A stretch of DNA of 44,059 bases, taken from Desulfatitalea sp. BRH_c12 (lineage in GTDB: Bacteria; Desulfobacterota; Desulfobacteria; Desulfobacterales; Desulfosarcinaceae). The notes under the pieces are model-generated. The model was not told the DNA's origin and ran no database searches. It saw only the letters and a program-made list of their open reading frames with translations. The position numbers and the translations under genes are program-made. Below are positions 32,629 through 43,863 of this stretch, piece by piece; the first letter of the stretch is position 1; every line of letters begins with the position of its first letter. The DNA lies in the NCBI GenBank assembly GCA_000961655.1, contig LADR01000006.1, positions 1-44,059 of the forward strand, written 5' to 3'.

Positions 32629-34896
32629 CTAAGTACTTGAGCGCCCCCCTCTCCTTTCGGCAGTGATAATCTCCATCATCGTTTTCGACAGATCGGTGAT
32701 ATTGTATGGCTTTTGAATCAGGCCCACACAGCCGCTTGCGATCAGTTCTTCTGCCTGGCCGTCCGGACCATATCCGGTGCAAATCATCACCTTGAGCCGA
32801 GGGTCTATCTCCCGAAAGGCGTGGTAGAGATCGGCGCCATTCACATCGGGCAGGATCAAATCCAACAAGACCAGATCGATCTTGTCCCAATTCTCCTGAA
32901 ACAGTTCCCTGGCCTTCGGCCCGTTGTCGGCCGCCAATACGGTGAAACCCAAATGCGCCAACAGCGATGCACTGGCTTCGAGCACATGGGGTTCATCGTC
33001 GATCAGCAGAATGGTTCCGTGGCATGGAATGCAACACGGTTCATCGGCCGCTGGCGGTTGCAAGGCTTCCTCCGGGCCGGCCGGCAGATAAACAAAGAAG
33101 GTGCTGCCCGTGCCGACCTCGGATTCCACCCAGATGTCGCCGCCGTGATTCTTGACGATGCCGTAGGTCGTGGAGAGCCCGAGGCCGGTGCCCCGGCCGA
33201 GCCCTTTGGTGGTAAAGAAGGGCTCGAAAATGCGGTCGAGCACCGCTTTGGGCATGCCGGCGCCCTGGTCGGACACCTTCAGCATGACATAGTCCTCGTG
33301 GCTGGCCAGGGCCATCTGGCCTCCGGCATGGACACCTTTCAGGCGGGCGGTTTCGATGAACACGCCGCCTCCGCCCGGCATGGCATCGGCGGCGTTGAGC
33401 AGCAGGTTCAGCAGGACCTGCTCGAGCTGGCCCTGATTGCCTCTAATACAGGCGGCCTCCGCGGAGAGTCTGAATTGCACCCGGATTTGCCGTTTGGTGG
33501 CGGTCAGGGTTTCGGCCGCGTCTTTGACCAGTTGGTTGAGATTCACCGGTTCCATTTCCGCAGTTCCGGTGCGGGCATACTGGAGAAGCTGACGGGTGAG
33601 TTTCGATCCGCTCTTCACCAGTTCGACGATTCTGGCCAAATGGGTGTATTCGGGATTCGAAGGGGCCATCCTGGCCAAGGAGAGACAAGCATAGCCATTG
33701 ATGCCCATGAGCAGGTTGTTGAAATTGTGGGCCACGCCACCGGAAAGGGTTCCCAGGGCTTCCATTTTCTGGGAGTTGCGCAACCGGCGCTCCATCTTGT
33801 TCTGAACGGTGATGTCCCGTAAAAAATTGAGTATCGCCGGCCGACCTTCCCACTCGATCAAAACCGCGTTGAGCTCCACCTCCCGGATGTCGCCCATCCG
33901 GTTGACGATGCGGAATTCGACGTTGTCCGGGAAATCCTCGCCGGCCAGGCGTCGGTTGAAGCGATCCATGATTATCTCACGATCTTCCGGATGAACGAAC
34001 TCCCCAAAGGGGCGGTCTACGATGCCTTCGCAAGTATACCCCAGGATCCCCGAGGCGCTGGGGTTCATGAATTGAATCCGCTGGTCCTGGGTGACGAAGA
34101 TAGCATCCCTGGAGTTTTGAACCACATTGCGGTATTTCTCTTCCGAGTGCCGCAGCGCCGCTTCGACTTCCTTGAGGTCTGTGACGTCCACCAGCGCGCC
34201 CTGCATGCCGACCACCTCGCCATTTCGGAAGACAGGGCGCGCATTGGTCCGGGCCCATTTGATCTCACCCGTCTTTTTGATCATCCGGTACTCGGTGGCT
34301 TGGTCCTCTCCGCTCAGGATCTTGAGAAACATCTCGATGCGGCCTTCGAGGTCTTCGGGATGAACGAATTCGGTGAAGCTTCTCCCGATAACCTCATGCG
34401 CTTCATAGCCGGAAAGGCGGTAGATGTTCGGGCTGACATAGGCGACATTCGCATTTCGGTCATTGACGTAGATGGCCTCGTTCAGGTTTTCGAGCAGTGA
34501 GCGGTAGTGGCCGGTAATGCCCTGGTGAGGCTGCGGGTCCTGCCAGGTGTCGGCGGCCGGCACGATCATGCGGCACTCCGTTTCACCGAGCCGGAGAGCT
34601 CGAACGTCGGCGTCGACCAGCGCCCGGACACCGCTCGGCGATATGAAGTGGGCGAGGTTTTCGTTGACGAGGTGCAGGCGGAAAAGGAGCTGTTCGTCCG
34701 TCGGGGCACCGGAGCCGTCTTTAACGATTTGCGCGCGCTCCGCTTCAGGCAATTCCATTGCCTTGCAAAACAGCGCGTTGGCCGTCAGCAGACCGCCATC
34801 CGCAGCGGTGAATATGGCAATCGGGCAGGCCAGTGAGTGCAACAGACCGAGCAGGTCTTTTGATGGAATGTCGGGGGGCAGCATGGAAACGGGCAT
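32629..34896 (-). CDS. PAS hybrid histidine kinase with C-terminal receiver
   Basis: The soluble 755-residue protein begins with a PAS-like region (about 15-115), followed by two clear PAS/PAC domains (about 130-245 and 250-365). A HisKA domain has His390 in GGVAHNFNNLL, then an HATPase_c domain (about 475-605; GLGLSTTYGIVKNHGG) and a receiver domain (about 625-745) with Asp679 in LVLLDLILPD. The absence of membrane helices suggests sensing of a cytoplasmic redox or small-molecule signal. AAGG lies eight bases before ATG 34896. It diverges from the glycyl-radical enzyme operon across a 622-bp region, so it may control that operon, though no cognate DNA-binding regulator is seen. Confidence 0.92.
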   Translation of the reverse strand: MPVSMLPPDIPSKDLLGLLHSLACPIAIFTAADGGLLTANALFCKAMELPEAERAQIVKDGSGAPTDEQLLFRLHLVNENLAHFISPSGVRALVDADVRALRLGETECRMIVPAADTWQDPQPHQGITGHYRSLLENLNEAIYVNDRNANVAYVSPNIYRLSGYEAHEVIGRSFTEFVHPEDLEGRIEMFLKILSGEDQATEYRMIKKTGEIKWARTNARPVFRNGEVVGMQGALVDVTDLKEVEAALRHSEEKYRNVVQNSRDAIFVTQDQRIQFMNPSASGILGYTCEGIVDRPFGEFVHPEDREIIMDRFNRRLAGEDFPDNVEFRIVNRMGDIREVELNAVLIEWEGRPAILNFLRDITVQNKMERRLRNSQKMEALGTLSGGVAHNFNNLLMGINGYACLSLARMAPSNPEYTHLARIVELVKSGSKLTRQLLQYARTGTAEMEPVNLNQLVKDAAETLTATKRQIRVQFRLSAEAACIRGNQGQLEQVLLNLLLNAADAMPGGGGVFIETARLKGVHAGGQMALASHEDYVMLKVSDQGAGMPKAVLDRIFEPFFTTKGLGRGTGLGLSTTYGIVKNHGGDIWVESEVGTGSTFFVYLPAGPEEALQPPAADEPCCIPCHGTILLIDDEPHVLEASASLLAHLGFTVLAADNGPKARELFQENWDKIDLVLLDLILPDVNGADLYHAFREIDPRLKVMICTGYGPDGQAEELIASGCVGLIQKPYNITDLSKTMMEIITAERRGGRSST

Positions 34897-35518
34897 ATCG
34901 GCAACCTTGGCATTTTCAAGAATACAGGAACGTAAAGGAGCTATCGAATGCCAGCCTACCCCGTTTTGTATGCGAAAATAGGCGCTTTCGATAAGATAGC
35001 GTTAAAAATTCTATTTGTTTCGCAAATCGCGCAACTTATTCTGAACTGCAAGGCCAATCCACCAGTAGTTTCATCACAGTGTTCGGTAGATAGGGCAATG
35101 AGAAAGTGGATTCATCTGATAGAATCCTGCACGGTTATAATCATTCGCAGCGCCAGCAGTCAACTCCGATTCTAACCTTCTCGCAAGACCCATATTACTA
35201 TCACATTACTATTGACATTATTCAGCTGTTGGCCTCATCTACTGTTTATTCATAAATGGGCAATACCTGTTTATCCCTAAATAGACAAATTTGATCAAGA
35301 TCGGCGCGCGGATTTAAACCGCAGGCATATGGTCGATATTCCGAGGATTAAATTTTCAGCGCAACAAAGATATCAGTCAAAGCTGCCATCGGCTTGACCA
35401 TTTTTTTGGATGGGCACTCTTTATAATCATTGGCGTTTTGGAGTAACTGCATCCTCTATCCAACAATCTATACACTGAAATAATGGCAGGCCTCTTATGA
35501 ACTAAAAGGAGCAAACCC
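34897..35518. other. Divergent intergenic region, 622 bp, with no gene found
   Basis: It separates the hybrid kinase gene from the glycyl-radical operon. It is more A+T-rich than the genes around it. A TTGACA at 35213-35218 could be a -35 box but has no good -10 at normal spacing, and TATAAT at 35422-35427 is 22 bp from a TTGACC. A pair of TTTA-N4-TAAA repeats is listed separately. I found no GG-N10-GC sigma-54 site. AAAGGAG lies before the start at 35519. Confidence 0.6.
35244..35282. promoter_or_regulatory. Pair of TTTA-N4-TAAA palindromic repeats upstream of the glycyl-radical operon
   Basis: GTTTATTCATAAAT (35244-35257) and GTTTATCCCTAAAT (35269-35282) share 12 of 14 bases and start 25 bp apart. 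Each is an imperfect palindrome. Two similar sites in phase suggest a dimeric regulator. They lie 236-275 bp before the glycyl-radical enzyme start. Confidence 0.45.
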
Positions 35519-37999
35519 ATGGGCACCGTTTCCTTAGACGATATCCGACTGCGCCGGCACACGTTGGAGAGCCTGCCGCGGCTCAAAACGCTGCGCGGCA
35601 ATCTTTTGGCCACGCCACCGGCCGTGTGCATCGAGCGGGCCCTGCACGTCACCCGATACCTGCGGGACAACTCGCCCGACACCGAGCCCATGATCACCCG
35701 CTACGCATCTGCCGTGGCCCACTTTTTGAGAAACAAACAGCCGCTTTTCTTCGACGACAACCTGCTGGCCGGCACCACCTGCGCCAAACCCTTCGGCGCG
35801 CCGATCTATCCCGAGTGGACCGGCATGACCATCTGGCCAGAGTTGGACGTGATCGGCTCGCGGGAGAAAAACCCGCAGCAATTAAGCCGCGCGGAGGCCG
35901 ATACGCTCAATTTCGAGATCTACCCCTACTGGATGGAGCGCTCCGTGCTGGAGGTGACCCGCAAGCGGCACGGCAATCCGGACTGCATGCGCCTTTTCGA
36001 GCGCATCGTCTTTTTCATCGCCGGCAAGGCCGGCACCATCTCCCACACCGTGCCGTGCTACACACTGGCCCTGGAAAAAGGGCTCGATCACATCATCGAT
36101 GCGGCGGCCCAAAAAGAAGCGTTGCTGAAACAGGCGGGATCTTTGGACGAAACGCAGCAGCGCAGCCTGCTTTTCTACCGGGCCGTACAAATCGCGCTGG
36201 ACGGGGTGAGGGGCTATGCCCACAACCTGAGTGTGGAGGCTGCCCGCCTGGCCAAACTGGAACCGGACCCCTGGCGCAAGGCCAATTTAGAAGCCATGGC
36301 CCGGGTGTGCGCCCGGGTGCCGGCCAAACCGGCCCGCACCTTCCGCGAAGCCGTCAATGCCCTCTGGATCGTCCAGGTGGCCATCCACGCCGAAAATATC
36401 AACATGGCCATGAGCCCTGGGCGGTTGGATCAGGTGCTCTATCCCTACTACACGGCGGATCGGGCTGAGGGCAGTTTGACCGAAGAACAGGCCTTGGCCT
36501 TGATCGGCTGCCTGTGGCTCAAACTCAACGACAACACCAACCTGGTGCCCGAAACGGCCGAAGAGCTGTTCGGCGGCGCCGGCACCGTGCCGGCGGTGAC
36601 CGTGGGCGGCGTGGATGCCGACGGCAACGACGCGGTCAACGACCTGACCTACATGATGCTGCGGGTGACCGAACTGCTCAAAACCCGCGACCCGAGCCTC
36701 AATGCCCGCTACCACCAGGCGGTCAACAGCACGGCATACCGCAATCGGGTGGCCGAGGTCATCGCCACCACCCGATCAGTGCCGGCCGTGCACAACGACA
36801 AGGTGGACATCCGGACGCTCGTCAACCAGGGCGTGCCGGTCGCCGACGCCCGCGATTATGCCGTGATCGGCTGCGTGGAGTTGGCCGTGGCCGGGCGCAG
36901 CTACGACGCCTCCAGCGCGATCATGCTCAACCTGGTATCGGTGCTCGAACTGGCGCTGTATAACGGCAAGCGTCCGGTCACCGGCGACGAACAGATCGGA
37001 CCGGCCACCGGCGAGGCTATGGCCTTTACCGATTTCGAGCAGTTCTGGAACGCCTTTGCCGAGCAGTTCCGATGGTTGGCCGGTCAGGCCGTGACGCTCA
37101 ACGAGATGTTCGGCCGGGTGTATCAGGACATCCTGCCGTCGCCGCTGCTGTCGGCTTTTTTCGACGGTCCCATGGACAAGGGGCAGGATCTGATCTTCGG
37201 CGGCGCCCGCTACAATGCATCGGGGGCCACCCACATCGGTTTCGCCGACACGATCGATTCCCTCAGCGCCATCGAAAAGGCCGTTTTCACCGATCGGCGG
37301 TGCACCTTCGACGAACTGCTCGCCGCTTTGCAGGGCGATTTCAAGGGGCACGAACGGCTGCACGCCTACCTGGTCAACCGCACTCCCAAATACGGCAGCG
37401 GCGATCCCGATGCCCAGCGCAATGCCCACCGATTGGTGCGGCTGCTTTATGATTTTTACCAGTCCAAGACCAATTATCGCGGCGGCAAGTATCGGCCGGC
37501 CTTCTGGACCATGACCAACCATGCCGGCCAGGGCAAGCTATCCGGTGCACTGCCCAACGGCCGCAAGGCGCACAAGGTCTTCGCCAGCGGCATCACACCG
37601 GTTTCCCAGGCGGCCGGCAACCTGGCGGCCTGTCTCCAGTCGGTGGGCGGTCTGGACGGCGACTGCATTCCCGGCGGCGAAGCCTTCAACCTGAAGTATC
37701 CGGCCATCGGCGGCCAGGAAGATATTGAAAGGTTCGGCGCCGGCATCGAGACTTATTTCGACTGCGGCGGTTTGCACATCCAGTGCAACATCATGTCTTA
37801 TGAAATGCTGCTGGACGCCAAGGCGCATCCGGAAAAGTATCCCGAATTGCTGGTGCGTGTCTCGGGTTACAGCGCCTATTTCAAAGATTTGAACGATGCC
37901 ATGAAAGAGGAGATCATCGTCCGGACCGCCTATGATCTTCGTTCCGGAGAAGCGGTGCCGTTTCCTGGGGCTCATGAAGATATGCTGGGGACGAAGTAG
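35519..37999 (+). CDS. Glycyl-radical enzyme of the PFL-like (PflD) superfamily, substrate unassigned
   Basis: The 826-residue protein has the PFL-like domain over most of its length. Thiyl-radical Cys452 lies in GCVEL (Cys-x-Glu454) and the C-terminal glycyl radical loop RVSGYSAYF has Gly783. A single Cys rather than the Cys-Cys of pyruvate formate-lyase rules out classic PFL. Cys-x-Glu is shared with dehydratases and C-N/C-S lyases such as glycerol dehydratase and CutC, so an eliminase is possible. It also resembles uncharacterised PflD-like enzymes of Archaeoglobus and sulfate reducers. The enzyme must be anaerobic and needs the activase at 38475. An SCP2-like gene lies between them, hinting at a hydrophobic substrate. 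AAAGGAG precedes ATG 35519. Confidence 0.93.
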   Translation: MGTVSLDDIRLRRHTLESLPRLKTLRGNLLATPPAVCIERALHVTRYLRDNSPDTEPMITRYASAVAHFLRNKQPLFFDDNLLAGTTCAKPFGAPIYPEWTGMTIWPELDVIGSREKNPQQLSRAEADTLNFEIYPYWMERSVLEVTRKRHGNPDCMRLFERIVFFIAGKAGTISHTVPCYTLALEKGLDHIIDAAAQKEALLKQAGSLDETQQRSLLFYRAVQIALDGVRGYAHNLSVEAARLAKLEPDPWRKANLEAMARVCARVPAKPARTFREAVNALWIVQVAIHAENINMAMSPGRLDQVLYPYYTADRAEGSLTEEQALALIGCLWLKLNDNTNLVPETAEELFGGAGTVPAVTVGGVDADGNDAVNDLTYMMLRVTELLKTRDPSLNARYHQAVNSTAYRNRVAEVIATTRSVPAVHNDKVDIRTLVNQGVPVADARDYAVIGCVELAVAGRSYDASSAIMLNLVSVLELALYNGKRPVTGDEQIGPATGEAMAFTDFEQFWNAFAEQFRWLAGQAVTLNEMFGRVYQDILPSPLLSAFFDGPMDKGQDLIFGGARYNASGATHIGFADTIDSLSAIEKAVFTDRRCTFDELLAALQGDFKGHERLHAYLVNRTPKYGSGDPDAQRNAHRLVRLLYDFYQSKTNYRGGKYRPAFWTMTNHAGQGKLSGALPNGRKAHKVFASGITPVSQAAGNLAACLQSVGGLDGDCIPGGEAFNLKYPAIGGQEDIERFGAGIETYFDCGGLHIQCNIMSYEMLLDAKAHPEKYPELLVRVSGYSAYFKDLNDAMKEEIIVRTAYDLRSGEAVPFPGAHEDMLGTK

Positions 38000-38016
38000 A
38001 AACAAGGAGTCGCGCC

Positions 38017-38478
38017 ATGTGGAATCACATCCTGAACATCATCCTGATGCGCGCAACCCGGTTCAAGCGCGCGGCAGAGCGATACCTGGAGGCAATCAAG
38101 TCGGAGGGGGCCGAAGAGTTCCTCGAAATACTGCTCAAAGCCATGAAACTGGTTTTTTTCCTCGACAAGGATTTCCGCCGCAACATCGAGAGCTTCAACG
38201 GCCGCTACCTCTTCTGCAGCAAGGACCGCACCATCACCGTGTCGGCGGTGTTTGCCAACGGCAAGCTCACGGTGAGCGAGCAGGCCATCGACAACACCGA
38301 CATGACCGTCACTTTTAAAAACGCAAAGGCGCTCATGGGCTTTTTGCTAAGCCCCAAGCCCGACATTCTCGGGTCCATGCTGCGCCAGGATGTGGCCGTG
38401 AACGGCAATCTGAACTATTTGTACAAATTCGCTTTCATGGCCAAACGGCTGCAGCTGATGGCCACCGGCGGTCTATGA
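38017..38478 (+). CDS. SCP2-like (sterol-carrier/lipid-binding fold) small protein
   Basis: The 153-residue protein has an N-terminal helical part (about 1-50) followed by an SCP2-type alpha/beta fold. Motifs are FNGRYLFCSKDRTITVSAVF, a DMTVTFKNAKALMGFLLS helix and VNGNLNYLYKF at the end, comparable to the VxGD...L close of SCP2 domains. SCP2 domains bind lipids and fatty-acyl chains in a hydrophobic tunnel. AAGGAG precedes ATG 38017, 17 bases after the glycyl-radical enzyme stop, and its stop overlaps the activase start (ATGA). Tight linkage suggests it serves that enzyme as substrate carrier, chaperone or accessory subunit. No role is proven. Confidence 0.82.
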   Translation: MWNHILNIILMRATRFKRAAERYLEAIKSEGAEEFLEILLKAMKLVFFLDKDFRRNIESFNGRYLFCSKDRTITVSAVFANGKLTVSEQAIDNTDMTVTFKNAKALMGFLLSPKPDILGSMLRQDVAVNGNLNYLYKFAFMAKRLQLMATGGL

Positions 38479-39407
38479 GGTCAGAGCCGCTCCAGCCCCT
38501 GATCTTCGACATTCACCGCTACGCCCTCGACGACGGGCCGGGTATCCGGACCACCGTCTTCTTCAAGGGATGCCCGCTGGCCTGTGTCTGGTGCCACAAT
38601 CCCGAAGGCGTCAGCGCCACACCCGAGTTGTACTACCACCTCCAGAAATGCATCGGCTGCGGTGATTGTGCCGCCGTGTGCAAACGCAACGCCATTACGT
38701 CAGAAGCGGGGCAGGTAGTGATCGATCGCCGCCGATGCAACGACTGCGGCGACTGTACCGGTGTGTGCCCGGCCACAGCCCTCGTCATCAAAGGACGCTA
38801 CTACCCAGTGGACGAACTGGTGCCCACCCTCTGTCAGGACAAGCGTTTTTTCGATCACAGCGGCGGCGGGGTGACCTTTTCCGGAGGAGAGCCAACGCTG
38901 CATCCGGACTACCTCGAACAGGTGCTGGTCCAACTGAAAGCACTTGGTATTCACGTGGTATTGCAGACCTGCGGCCATTTCGACTGGCCCCGCTTTCACC
39001 ACCAATTGCTGCCCTATGTCGATCTGATCTACTTCGATATCAAAGCCATCGATGTGCATCGGCACCACCAGTGGACCGGACGATCCAATGCAACCATATT
39101 GACGAACCTGGCCCGTCTGGCCGCATCAGCACCCGAAAAACTGGTGTGCAGCGTGCCACTGGTGGACTGGTTTACGGCGCGGGAGGACAATGTCCGGGCC
39201 ATAGCCGGCCACATCGGCGCGATGGTCGGTGTGCCCTATCGCCTGAATGCCTATCACCCCGGCGCCATCATCAAAAATGCGGCCCTCGGCAAGACGCCCC
39301 CCGCGGCCCTGCACCAGCAGATCTTGAGCCCGGCGGACTATCGCCGCATCGTGAAGACTTTTGACGCCATCGTGTCCCATTCCCGCCAAAAGAGAGACCA
39401 AAGCTAA
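38475..39407 (+). CDS. Glycyl-radical enzyme activating enzyme (radical SAM)
   Basis: The 310-residue protein has the radical SAM motif CPLACVWC (C33, C37, C40) after GPGIRTTVFFKG. Two ferredoxin-like [4Fe-4S] sites follow (C59/62/65/69 and C88/91/94/98), an insert found in activases of non-PFL glycyl-radical enzymes. The SAM-binding FSGGEPTLHP lies near residue 136. It uses SAM and an electron to install the radical on Gly783 of the enzyme encoded at 35519. It overlaps the SCP2-like gene by four bases and ends the operon. Confidence 0.95.
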   Translation: MRSEPLQPLIFDIHRYALDDGPGIRTTVFFKGCPLACVWCHNPEGVSATPELYYHLQKCIGCGDCAAVCKRNAITSEAGQVVIDRRRCNDCGDCTGVCPATALVIKGRYYPVDELVPTLCQDKRFFDHSGGGVTFSGGEPTLHPDYLEQVLVQLKALGIHVVLQTCGHFDWPRFHHQLLPYVDLIYFDIKAIDVHRHHQWTGRSNATILTNLARLAASAPEKLVCSVPLVDWFTAREDNVRAIAGHIGAMVGVPYRLNAYHPGAIIKNAALGKTPPAALHQQILSPADYRRIVKTFDAIVSHSRQKRDQS

Positions 39408-39676: not shown

Positions 39677-40921
39677 TCACTCGGTTTTATCCAATGGACT
39701 GCGCACACCCAGAGCATTCTTTTGGGCCACATGGGTGTAAATCATCGTTGTCTGTAAATCGGAATGCCCCAGCAGCATCTGGATCGTTCGAATATCATAG
39801 CCATCTTCCAAAAGATGGGTCGCAAAGCTGTGCCGCAGCGTATGGGTCGAAACACGTTTGGGAATCCGGGCTGCCTCGGCAGCTTTTTTAATCGTGCGCT
39901 GAATCAAATCGGGTGAGACATGATGTCTGCGGATCAAATTTGTCCGTGGATCGACGGAGAACCGGTCGGAAGGAAACACCCAAAACCATATCCACTGTTT
40001 GGATGCATTCGTATATTTCTTATCCAACGCCCCGGGCAAATGCACCCCGACAACGTTGGCCTCGCGGTCAGCTTCATAAATAAGGCGCACTTGTTCCAGA
40101 TGGCTTTTCAGTTCCTTTGCCACATTATTCGGCAGCAGCGTCTGCCGATCCTTGTCGCCCTTACCTGCGCGCACCGTGACCGTGCTTCGTTCGAAATCCA
40201 GATCCTTGATCCTCAGTCTGGTGCATTCGTTCAGCCGAAGTCCACCGCCGTAAATTATCTTTACCATTAATGCGGAGGTGCCCTGAATAAAGCTGATAAG
40301 CCGCTTCACCTCACCCTGTGTAAGAACGGTCGGCAGCCGTTGCCCGCGCTTGGCCCTTACCACACTTTGAATCGAGCCGACTTCCTTCTCGAGCACATGC
40401 CGAAAGAAAAACAAGATCGCGTTAAACGCCTGGTTCTGGGTAGCTTTTGCCACATTAAGATCGGCCGCCAGATGAGAAAGAAAATTCTTAATGTGAAAAT
40501 CAGACAACTCACCCGGTGATGCAGGTTTGACATAAACATAAAAAGAGCGAAGCCATTTCATATAAGTTTGTTCGGTACGGTAGGATCGCTGTTTCAGCCT
40601 CAACATCCGAGTCATCATGTCGCCGGCCGACTTCCAGTCATCAATGGTGACAATTCCTTTAATTCCAGGATCTGAATTGTTTTGACTGAGATAATAGGAA
40701 TAAAGATTAAGCGCTTCTCTCGCCTGATCGACCTGCCATTGTTCATGGCGTCTTCCCACTTTGGTTAAAAATGGATCGATCCGCTTTTCATCTATGATCC
40801 CATTTTCTTGCAGTTTGCAAAACCGGATGAATTCCCGAACCCAGTGCATGTAGAAAGGCAAATGTTTAATATTCACATTTTTGCGGGATTTCAGATAGAT
40901 ATGGAATAGCTCGGCAGACAT
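39677..40921 (-). CDS. intI: Integron integrase (IntI-type tyrosine recombinase)
   Basis: This 414-residue tyrosine recombinase has catalytic residues R229, H360, R363, H386 and Y395. The segment at about 299-345 (ALDKKYTNASKQW..., WFWVFPSDRFSVDPR, RRHHVSP) is the extra domain unique to integron integrases and absent from XerC/D. It is longer than IntI1 (337) by an N-terminal extension of about 75 residues, as in some environmental integrases. The gene faces away from a cassette with a valid attC, confirming an integron. AAGGA precedes the start. A palindrome at 40940-40960 lies in its promoter. It excises and inserts cassettes at attI/attC. Confidence 0.94.
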   Translation of the reverse strand: MSAELFHIYLKSRKNVNIKHLPFYMHWVREFIRFCKLQENGIIDEKRIDPFLTKVGRRHEQWQVDQAREALNLYSYYLSQNNSDPGIKGIVTIDDWKSAGDMMTRMLRLKQRSYRTEQTYMKWLRSFYVYVKPASPGELSDFHIKNFLSHLAADLNVAKATQNQAFNAILFFFRHVLEKEVGSIQSVVRAKRGQRLPTVLTQGEVKRLISFIQGTSALMVKIIYGGGLRLNECTRLRIKDLDFERSTVTVRAGKGDKDRQTLLPNNVAKELKSHLEQVRLIYEADREANVVGVHLPGALDKKYTNASKQWIWFWVFPSDRFSVDPRTNLIRRHHVSPDLIQRTIKKAAEAARIPKRVSTHTLRHSFATHLLEDGYDIRTIQMLLGHSDLQTTMIYTHVAQKNALGVRSPLDKTE

Positions 40922-41278: not shown

Positions 41279-42091
41279 CACAGGAGTGTAAATGAGAGTT
41301 GTAAGCATGGCACTAATCGATATGAGCTATTTTTTAGTGTCTGCGGCTTGCATAGGCATTGCTTTCTTAACTCAGTACTGGATTGGCTTTGGATATATAA
41401 ACTCAGCATTACTGCTCTTCTTGCTTTATTTAGCGATAGTACGTATTCCACTTGTACTTAATTGGTCGAGCAACCTTTATGGCTCCGTCTTTCTAAGAGT
41501 TTTTTTCTTTCAAGTATTTTCTATAGCGGTATATGCAATTTCTTACAATCAGTCGTACGCATTGGGAGATAAATTCGAATCGTATTGGGATGCCCTTTAT
41601 TTTAGCGCAACTACATGGACTACTTTAGGCTACGGAGATATTAGCCCTACCGGAAGCATACGATTGCTCACGTCAATTCAAGCGTTAACTGGCCTATCAA
41701 CGTTGCCTGTGCTTGCGTCTGTAATTTGGCTTTATTGCGAAAGACGGTTGTGGAGCAAAAGCCAAGAAGAGCAAGGAAAAGAGGATTATCAGTTAACGAC
41801 AGATAGTGCCCTGGGCTTTTTCGTGGAAGTTGAAAGCGAAAAAACTATAAAAGAGCAAAAGCAGCGAGATAAAATAAAACTTAAACCATGCTCTTGTTCA
41901 GGATCTGATCCGTTTATCGAGAAGTATTACGATATTATCGGCGTGCTAACACCGCTGGCAAAATTTATAGTTATTTGTAGAAGTTGCGGTGAGTTTTCCA
42001 AGCCAAGGAGAAATGCATATTTGGCTGCTTGGACATGGAATTTTAAAAGACATAACAAGGCATTCCAGCGGACAAGCCGCTGAATGCGGCG
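41273..42091 (+). mobile_element. Integron gene cassette 1 (819 bp)
   Basis: The cassette runs from the T after G41272 to the G of the next core (GTTAAGT, 42091-42097). It holds a single gene in the orientation usual for cassettes and ends in an attC. It is visibly richer in A+T than the chromosomal genes upstream, consistent with a foreign origin. Confidence 0.82.
41292..42083 (+). CDS. Cassette-encoded K+-channel-like membrane protein (TxGYGD pore)
   Basis: The 263-residue protein has hydrophobic helices near 13-33, 38-55 and 66-85, a pore helix with selectivity filter TLGYGD (111-116) and a final helix near 124-150. This matches the pore module of ion_trans_2 potassium channels. The cytoplasmic C-terminus has CSC (about 200) and CRSC (about 232), a possible zinc site. 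The last residues (AFQRTSR) are encoded by the attC, as in many cassette proteins. AGGAG lies six bases before ATG. It is the only complete cassette gene in the window; a role in ion homeostasis is inferred from the filter. Confidence 0.85.
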   Translation: MRVVSMALIDMSYFLVSAACIGIAFLTQYWIGFGYINSALLLFLLYLAIVRIPLVLNWSSNLYGSVFLRVFFFQVFSIAVYAISYNQSYALGDKFESYWDALYFSATTWTTLGYGDISPTGSIRLLTSIQALTGLSTLPVLASVIWLYCERRLWSKSQEEQGKEDYQLTTDSALGFFVEVESEKTIKEQKQRDKIKLKPCSCSGSDPFIEKYYDIIGVLTPLAKFIVICRSCGEFSKPRRNAYLAAWTWNFKRHNKAFQRTSR

Positions 42092-42097
42092 TTAAGT
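42050..42097 (+). other. attC recombination site of cassette 1
   Basis: R'' is ACATAAC (42050-42056) and R' is GTTAAGT (42091-42097). Between them GCATTCCAGCGG pairs with CCGCTGAATGC around a small loop, leaving one extra C on the left arm, which is the extrahelical base expected of attC. The spacers next to the cores are mismatched, as in real attC sites. It is short but complete. Confidence 0.88.
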
Positions 42098-42106
42098 GTG
42101 TGAACT

Positions 42107-42366: not shown

Positions 42367-43863
42367 ATGGTAAAATCCACAAAATCAAATTTTCGGCAAA
42401 ACCGCAATACCAAAGGACCTATTGAAAATCGTGCCAGAGCCAGTAAAATCAATGCTTCAACCCTATACGAGACGTGCAGCGAACAATTGAGCCCATTTGG
42501 CGGACTCTTGGCGATGATCAAATTTTTAGATCTGCTCGATTTTGCACAAATTTTTAACTCCGCTTATCAGGCCCCAGCTCGCCATCCCAAGCTGGGTCAC
42601 TATAAAATGGTTATTGGGATTTTGATGCTACTGTTTATAGGCTTTAACCGGATATGGCATTTTACTTATATCCGACTGGACGCCATGCTGTGCGGTTTTT
42701 TTCGGCTTGCACGGCTTCCGGTTGCCAGCACCTTCTGGCGTTACGTTGACCACATGGGCATCAATCAAGGCCTGTCGTTGATTAAGGTCATGAGCGCCCT
42801 GCGCGAAAGGGTCTGGAAACAGCTCGGGCTGAACTACTACCGGATCCATATCGATATCGATACGACCGTTGAAACCCTCTATGGGAACCAACAAGGCGGT
42901 CGCAAGGGGCACAATACCAAACATCGCGGCAAAAAAGGTTATCGGCCGGTCCTTTGCTTTATCGCCCAAACCCGCGAGTACATGCTCGGCAAGCTGCGCA
43001 AGGGCGAAACGATCTCCGGCAAACAAACAGCTGACTTTATCCTTAAAATCAAGGCCAACCTGCCTGGGTGTGTCAGACAGGTGCTGCTCAGGGCCGATGG
43101 AGAATTTTTCAGTTGGGAAAGCATTGCGGCCGCGCGTGCCTGCGGATTTGATTTTATCATCGCCAATAAAAGAGGCAACCCGCCTTTTGATCCCGCTGCC
43201 TGGTATCGTGGCCGGCAGCGCCAAGATATTGAGTTCAACAGCTGCGTTTATCAGCCGTTGGGCTGGGAGACGCCGTGCCGGTTTGTGGTCATGCGCATAC
43301 CAAAAGAAACCGAAACTTCCGGTGCGAACCAGCCGATTCAGTGTGCGCTTTTTGAAGACGACCGCTACACCTATCGGATATTTTGCACCAGCCTTAACGG
43401 CAGCGCTCACGAAATTATTGCCCAGTATGATAAGCGCGCCGATGTGGAGAACCTCGTCGGTGAAGCCAAGCGAGAAGGACTGGAGGCTGTTCCATCGGCC
43501 AAGTTCAAGAACAATTATGCCTTCTTTCAACTGGTGATGCTGGCTTACAACATCTGGCGCTACATGAAACTTTACGCCGCTTCAAGTACGCTGAGCAAAA
43601 AGTCCGGCCGCGATGAGCAGGGGACGGGGCCAGGTCTGAAGGGCATAGCAGCCAATACCATCCGTATTGCAAGGCTGCGACTGCTGTTCATTGCAGCAAA
43701 AGTTGTCAAAGATCAGAACCGGGACAAGATCAAGTACTCTATCCATGATGCGCGCACACCGGCGATGGTAGGCTTATTAAAGCTGCTTGATGCCGCGCGC
43801 TCAAAGCCGCGACCTTGGGCTCAAAATGAGGGCTGGCCGCAACGCTTTGCTTTGGCTGGTTGA
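42367..43863 (+). CDS. IS1380 family transposase
   Basis: This 498-residue DDE transposase has acidic residues in IDIDTTVETLYG (first Asp), LLRADGEFFS (second Asp) and YDKRADVENLVGEAKREG (Glu, in the Y-x-R-x-x-x-E-x-x-x-x-E/K arrangement). It is intact from ATG, with AGGAGGT upstream at the usual spacing, to its stop, so the element may still be active. It is flanked by terminal inverted repeats and lies in the cassette array. Confidence 0.95.
   Translation: MVKSTKSNFRQNRNTKGPIENRARASKINASTLYETCSEQLSPFGGLLAMIKFLDLLDFAQIFNSAYQAPARHPKLGHYKMVIGILMLLFIGFNRIWHFTYIRLDAMLCGFFRLARLPVASTFWRYVDHMGINQGLSLIKVMSALRERVWKQLGLNYYRIHIDIDTTVETLYGNQQGGRKGHNTKHRGKKGYRPVLCFIAQTREYMLGKLRKGETISGKQTADFILKIKANLPGCVRQVLLRADGEFFSWESIAAARACGFDFIIANKRGNPPFDPAAWYRGRQRQDIEFNSCVYQPLGWETPCRFVVMRIPKETETSGANQPIQCALFEDDRYTYRIFCTSLNGSAHEIIAQYDKRADVENLVGEAKREGLEAVPSAKFKNNYAFFQLVMLAYNIWRYMKLYAASSTLSKKSGRDEQGTGPGLKGIAANTIRIARLRLLFIAAKVVKDQNRDKIKYSIHDARTPAMVGLLKLLDAARSKPRPWAQNEGWPQRFALAG

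Follow-up and report, generated by a model that had tools for sequence, protein, structure and literature searches.

The window analysed here, a stretch of 44,059 nucleotides from Desulfatitalea sp. BRH_c12 (contig LADR01000006.1), contains an operon that encodes an oxygen-sensitive glycyl-radical enzyme (GRE; P0001, 826 amino acids), a partner of 153 amino acids with a predicted SCP2 fold (P0002) and a radical-SAM glycyl-radical activase (P0003, 310 amino acids). The genes follow each other in this order on the forward strand, and their positions were read exactly from the sequence. The GRE gene extends from position 35519 to 37999 and is preceded by an AAGGAG ribosome-binding site (35506–35511, +). 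After a gap of 17 nucleotides, which holds a second AAGGAG ribosome-binding site (38004–38009, +), the partner gene follows (38017–38478) and overlaps by 4 nucleotides (ATGA) with the activase gene (38475–39407). The tight coupling of the three genes noted in the original prediction is therefore exact to the base.

A Pfam scan of P0001 gave matches above the cut-off to the PFL-like barrel (PF02901, 7e-169) and to Gly_radical (PF01228, 1e-18). In the genome of origin (6.0 Mb, 98% complete), a search for PF01228 found no match other than P0001. The thiyl cysteine and the glutamate of the Cys-x-Glu (CxE) motif, Cys452-Val453-Glu454, are encoded at 36872–36880 (+) and the radical glycine Gly783, in RVSGYSA, at 37865–37867 (+). 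Cys452, Glu454 and Gly783 are each identical in 46 of 46 aligned sequences, the window GRE included. The His176 codon (36044–36046, +; computed from the frame) is aligned with His164 of glycerol dehydratase and the corresponding His of HypD. P0001 ends 43 residues after Gly783, close to the 40 or so first estimated. The part behind the radical glycine comprises 32–46 residues in 27 unfused orthologues (window included) versus 22–28 residues in the other 49 GREs aligned for the tree. Its lineage-specific stretch (YDLRSGEAVPFP..., 37931–37996, +) occurs in the orthologues and is absent from the latter GREs and from three relatives that carry an SCP2 domain as an N-terminal fusion (N-fused relatives). 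That the tail is missing in these three N-fused enzymes fits a role in docking the downstream SCP2 module.

P0003 scored 272 bits with TIGR02494 (cut-off 174.35) and matched PF04055 and Fer4 families of Pfam, in line with additional 4Fe-4S motifs. GREs in general are activated by a radical-SAM activase and, judged by its sequence, P0003, encoded by the next gene but one, is the putative dedicated activase of P0001.

Linkage of the SCP2-fold protein to the enzyme

P0002 has no Pfam or NCBIfam match at 0.01 and hence matched no curated SCP2 profile. By itself it found no sequence match in the PDB, and a 45-row P0002 profile retrieved only unrelated PDB entries (E 0.15–0.68). The AlphaFold2 model of P0002 (mean pLDDT 82, N-terminal helix at residues 2–28) was compared with known structures by Foldseek, whose top matches were UbiJ-SCP2, alkylsulfatases and SCP2 proteins (best E 2e-5, probability 1.00). 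The 32 matches at E ≤ 0.001 include SCP2 proteins of bacteria, archaea and animals as well as C-terminal domains of alkylsulfatases. The model has the alpha/beta topology of SCP2, with a target-normalised TM of up to 0.68 to SCP2-fold entries, and its identity to UbiJ and the alkylsulfatases is only 12–18%. The earlier label 'SCP2-like' is thus supported by the modelled fold and not by sequence families; P0002 is predicted to be SCP2-like at the level of the fold only.

To follow the gene pair through other organisms, 84,980 species genomes were scanned with peptide patterns from P0001, which yielded 62 loci. In 55 of these the contig runs 500 bases beyond the GRE or the SCP2-like gene is seen (loci with room); in the remaining seven the contig stops no more than 228 bases from the GRE. 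All 55 loci with room carry the SCP2-like gene downstream of the GRE or fused to its C-terminus, and the activase was also seen in 49 of them. A chance neighbourhood was rejected on the basis of this pairing, and the conservation of the SCP2-like gene beside orthologues, on which the original prediction hinged, is complete in this set. In five of the 55 loci the SCP2 module is fused to the C-terminus of the GRE. The linkers of four of these fusions differ in length and sequence, and the fusions lie at three separate places of the tree (L044 with L046; L051; L058); L059, a fusion equal in length to L058, was left out of the tree. Carriers include bins named Deltaproteobacteria, Desulfobacterota groups, Nitrospirae, Acidobacteria, Bacteroidetes, Fibrobacteres, Victivallales, Clostridia, Atribacteria and Aminicenantes as well as one ANME-2 bin. 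This patchy taxonomic spread suggests horizontal transfer.

The opposite order of fusion was also found, in a sister clade of the enzyme. A P0002 search of 146 relatives matched 20 genomes at 26 places, comprising 11 stand-alone pieces beside a GRE, 13 domains in frame with a GRE (proteins of about 1000 amino acids), one domain inside a molybdenum enzyme (L018) and one in a frame without GRE (L026). For a survey of the class, GRE and SCP2 rows were cross-matched in 291 genomes with at most three GRE candidates scored per genome. Among 91 GREs of at least 800 bits, the SCP2 domain is located on the N side in 61 (open frames of 988–1074 amino acids) and on the C side in 24, and none was detected in six; GREs of 600–681 bits have no SCP2 domain (0 of 35). 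These counts rest on 104 of 137 SCP2 rows. The 33 dropped rows had at most 33.7 bits and open frames of at most 384 amino acids, and by contig names none of them is near a GRE in the count; a few rows just as weak but in long frames were retained, one of which (G229:C31) was counted as N-side. From the GRE rows, two partial pieces of 93 were dropped in the upper group and three of 38 in the lower group, one of the latter (G170) with an SCP2 match just upstream, and five partial rows of 714–793 bits were placed in neither group. The C-side case G197:C76 is more likely the N-terminal domain of the next gene. Of the six GREs without domain, one sits at the end of its contig, and a different contig has an SCP2 gene at its end; a second has a 900-amino-acid frame near a contig end. 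In the other four (frames of 992–1008 amino acids) the SCP2 domain may be too diverged for detection.

That the same enzyme is found with fusions in opposite orders is the strongest evidence presented here for a working contact of module and GRE. Such fusions turn what was first described as an unusual neighbour into a dedicated module, and we consider P0002 almost certainly a dedicated partner of the GRE. Such a partner could also be a structural or regulatory subunit for activation, radical-domain docking or oxygen protection, with no lipid role; its position would resemble that of the small subunits in benzylsuccinate synthase or 4-hydroxyphenylacetate decarboxylase. Other folds occur among known small GRE subunits; P0002 is itself small and coupled to the GRE in 55 of 55 loci, 49 of which also show an activase, and the C-terminal tail could be its docking element. 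However, the SCP2 fold is known for hydrophobic ligands, and the small subunits of those two enzymes are Fe-S proteins, whereas P0002 contains a single Cys. We therefore regard a purely structural or regulatory role as unlikely.

Several arrangements of the module were seen besides these. N-fused SCP2-GRE paralogues occur in tandem in L200 (7573–17541, three copies) and L201 (4357–11224, two copies), and each group is accompanied by one activase and a TetR-type regulator. In one genome, the separate-gene type and the N-fused type are found approximately 7 kb apart (L192 and L193; G258:C1:2566557-2579591). A 1001-amino-acid protein in L152 (7157–10162, +) consists of a P0002-related domain (residues 15–121, E 1.9e-8) fused to a molybdopterin oxidoreductase, so that other anaerobic enzymes may also make use of the SCP2-like module.

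Placement and predicted active site of P0001

A quick tree of 80 rows was calculated with SH-aLRT support only; it holds no IslA, HPAD or X-succinate synthases, and its GDH/PDH-like rows were identified only by their microcompartment neighbours. Together, the 31 orthologues and the three N-fused enzymes make up a single clade, which has an SH-aLRT of 100 and a long stem (1.21 changes per column). The original prediction could not match the enzyme to a characterised substrate class, and none of the labelled references (HypD, CutC, four HpsG, YbiW, PflD and PflB) belongs to its clade. PflB, CutC, PflD, YbiW, L104, L134 and L142 are long branches and their place is unsure.

P0001 had been predicted not to be pyruvate formate-lyase. 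Its score of 123.8 bits with the NCBIfam model TIGR01255 (cut-off 994.2), together with PflB being the longest branch of the tree, bears this out, and this identity was rejected. With the general PFL2-3 subfamily, P0001 reached 563 bits (cut-off 678). No NCBIfam equivalog claims it, and the equivalog scores among the matches listed are all far under their cut-offs. CutC, HypD and HpsG share the GRE fold and the CxE motif with P0001 but sit on separate branches of the tree, and P0001 scored only 429, 444 and 447 bits with their models (cut-offs 1050, 1100 and 1000). Identity with a known GRE equivalog was rejected on these scores and the tree placement.

Among PDB sequences, the highest scores of P0001 were obtained with CutC (419 bits), archaeal PFL2 (417) and diol dehydratases (379–393). 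Entry 8iof (357 bits) is named benzylsuccinate synthase in one listing and titled N-methyl-hydroxyproline dehydratase in another. Hydroxyphenylacetate decarboxylases (295 and 151 bits), MasD (222) and TutD (206) scored lower. The AlphaFold2 model of P0001 (pLDDT 93) is nearest to propanediol dehydratase and glycerol dehydratase (TM 0.91) and to CutC (TM 0.90–0.91 over the three, 30–31% identity). With B12-independent glycerol/1,2-propanediol dehydratase, P0001 has in common the barrel fold, the CxE motif, the radical Gly and the active-site His; it differs in the low identity, in its pocket residues and in the added C-terminal tail and SCP2-like partner.

Pocket residues were mapped by profile alignment to glycerol dehydratase, with the numbering fixed by C433. 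C433, E435 and H164 of that enzyme correspond to C452, E454 and H176, and all three are identical in the 46 sequences. Of N156, H164, H281, S282, Y339, E435 and D447, which we take to be its substrate-contact residues, only H164 and E435 are kept in P0001. The other five polar contacts are replaced (N156 by A168, H281 by M296, S282 by A297, Y339 by V357 and D447 by S466), leaving a less polar predicted active site. Excluding the three N-fused relatives, A168 is found in 34, M296 in 42, A297 in 43, V357 in 36 and S466 in 40 of 43 sequences. Position 357 is aligned with the Phe of the HypD Asp-Phe motif, which by our own equation is Phe340 of the solved enzyme and the place said to be typically aromatic in eliminases (PMC8473560). 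Lys170 is present in 45 of 46 sequences and not at that place in 24 GREs compared from outside the clade; as a guess, it could bind an anionic group.

These replacements bear on a further alternative, an ordinary small-diol dehydratase that merely adjoins an SCP2-fold gene. Its appeal lies in the structural likeness to propanediol and glycerol dehydratases (30–31% identity, TM 0.91). The loss of five glycerol-contact residues, the strict linkage and the fusions, the clade without labelled reference and the low equivalog scores listed make it highly improbable.

Neighbouring genes

The neighbours of 70 orthologous loci, many with short flanks, were clustered. Two families stood out, DUF6765 with 39 loci and the unannotated protein C4 with 29. 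In L048, from the cultured Desulforhopalus sp. IMCC35007, both are present along with GRE, SCP2 and activase genes. Neither was found in the window genome, although genomes serving as positive controls were detected, so that the three genes are the core of the system. DUF6765 proteins (e.g. L048 11848–12873) are rich in His and Asp, with the motif H144-x3-D148-x3-H152 invariant in 20 of 20. One of two members scanned matches PF00882 below the cut-off (E 0.016, 15.6 bits vs 26.8). A profile of 19 family members aligned to phospholipase C by hhalign with a probability of 3.4% and one metal-like motif in register, while two unrelated pairs gave 0.2%; a profile search of the PDB returned no useful relative. 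C4 (e.g. L048 5452–7932) is a large protein in which two internal repeats can be discerned by eye, both containing a W-x-G-K motif. The L048 member has no Pfam or NCBIfam match, the L029 member two sub-cut-off Pfam matches at its N-terminus, and no PDB relative of C4 was found by profile.

In 13 N-fused loci, a TetR-type regulator family was present in five and the activase family in six, and further N-fused loci examined showed the same regulator and activase. Short-chain dehydrogenases/reductases (SDRs) occur in six of the 13 loci, within 6 kb in five. The extended SDRs scanned scored best with OleD or HpnA models, with all NCBIfam scores listed below the cut-offs; for one classical SDR, 3-ketodihydrosphingosine reductase was fifth in the PDB list.

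In the window itself, a divergent hybrid PAS histidine kinase with receiver domain (32629–34896, −) lies upstream of the operon. An integron integrase (39677–40921, −; TIGR02249, 419.9 bits, cut-off 265) lies 269 bp downstream of the activase gene, and its cassette side is expected to point away from the GRE operon. Beyond it are an ion-channel-domain protein (PF07885, 41292–42083, +), perhaps a cassette gene, a possible attC-like stretch seen by eye near 42060–42100, and an IS1380 transposase (42367–43863, +).

Proposed chemistry and substrate

The CxE motif is described as a hallmark of GRE eliminases (PMC7077986, PMC8473560), and changes of His160 or Glu436 abolish the activity of HypD (PMC7077986). 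With CxE invariant, and with propanediol dehydratase, glycerol dehydratase and CutC as nearest structures, the chemistry of P0001 is likely of the eliminase type. A hydrophobic substrate combined with another GRE chemistry, i.e. fumarate addition, decarboxylation or C–C bond formation, would agree with the less polar pocket. Benzylsuccinate and (1-methylalkyl)succinate synthases are GREs with small partner proteins and hydrophobic substrates, and CxE also occurs in 4-hydroxyphenylacetate decarboxylase, so that the motif is no proof of elimination. P0001, however, scored only 206–222 bits with X-succinate synthases versus 417–419 bits for its best PDB matches, and CutC, archaeal PFL2 and diol dehydratases outscore the hydroxyphenylacetate decarboxylases as well. 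Moreover, no gene for a small Fe-S subunit, as in X-succinate synthases, was seen beside P0001, where the partner is instead of the SCP2 fold. We consider such a chemistry quite improbable.

As to the substrate, UbiJ uses an SCP2-fold domain to help handle hydrophobic molecules. Together with the alkylsulfatases SdsA1 and Pisa1, it is structurally nearest to the P0002 model, though neither is related to GREs in chemistry or catalytic fold. Alkylsulfatases with an SCP-2-like domain offer the closest working analogy. Recruitment of long aliphatic substrates is ascribed to this domain, and one homologue without it was inactive on SDS, although the authors mention problems with its expression (PMC6107682). 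By this analogy, and with the less polar predicted active site, a hydrophobic substrate is suggested indirectly; the SDR genes, which are generic, add weak context. Of the hydrophobic or acyl-linked substrate first proposed, the former thus gained indirect support and the latter none. The SCP2 module probably delivers such a substrate to the enzyme.

Taking both parts together, we lean towards P0001 being a putative eliminase-type GRE of an uncharacterised lineage, whose SCP2-fold module captures a substrate with a hydrophobic tail. The SCP2-like protein would bind this tail and present the polar end to the barrel of the GRE. The Gly783 radical, generated by the activase, would be passed to Cys452, whose thiyl would abstract a hydrogen from a carbon that carries OH (or N). 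The proton would be accepted by Glu454, tuned by His176, and 1,2-elimination would expel the neighbouring leaving group and yield an aldehyde or ketone.

Several observations weigh against this proposal. Since no curated SCP2 family was matched, the cavity of P0002 is not necessarily one that binds lipid. At several positions of the pocket, N-fused relatives and orthologues do not agree, and the aromatic residue lacking at position 357 is also missing in L104, L105, L106, L108, L140 and PflD (L137). In six of the 55 loci the activase was absent from the stretch examined. Assignment of DUF6765 as a zinc phospholipase C was not supported by hhalign, and with DUF6765 and C4 missing the context gives no pathway in the window genome. 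To these is added the occurrence of CxE in a decarboxylase.

We found no report of a GRE paired with an SCP2-like partner in the open-licence literature. A paper on a limonene GRE concerns, in its accessible part, a fumarate-adding enzyme. The characterised GRE eliminases named in PMC7077986 and PMC8473560 act on small polar molecules, namely glycerol, propanediol, choline, hydroxyproline and isethionate. A lineage of GREs linked to a lipid-carrier fold, in bins of many anaerobic phyla, would widen the scope of radical enzymes and would indicate that anaerobes have a pathway for hydrophobic molecules that has so far gone unrecognised. The fused GRE-SCP2 versions are single proteins open to direct purification and testing. 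More tentatively, and at present doubtful, the enzymes could form a widespread anaerobic class performing radical elimination directly on lipids, in which the polar head of a long-chain molecule held by an SCP2 domain, either fused or separate, for example a glycerol-ether, a 1,2-diol or a sphingoid-like amino-alcohol, is removed or cleaved. If true, this would provide a route for the anaerobic breakdown or remodelling of lipids or ether lipids.

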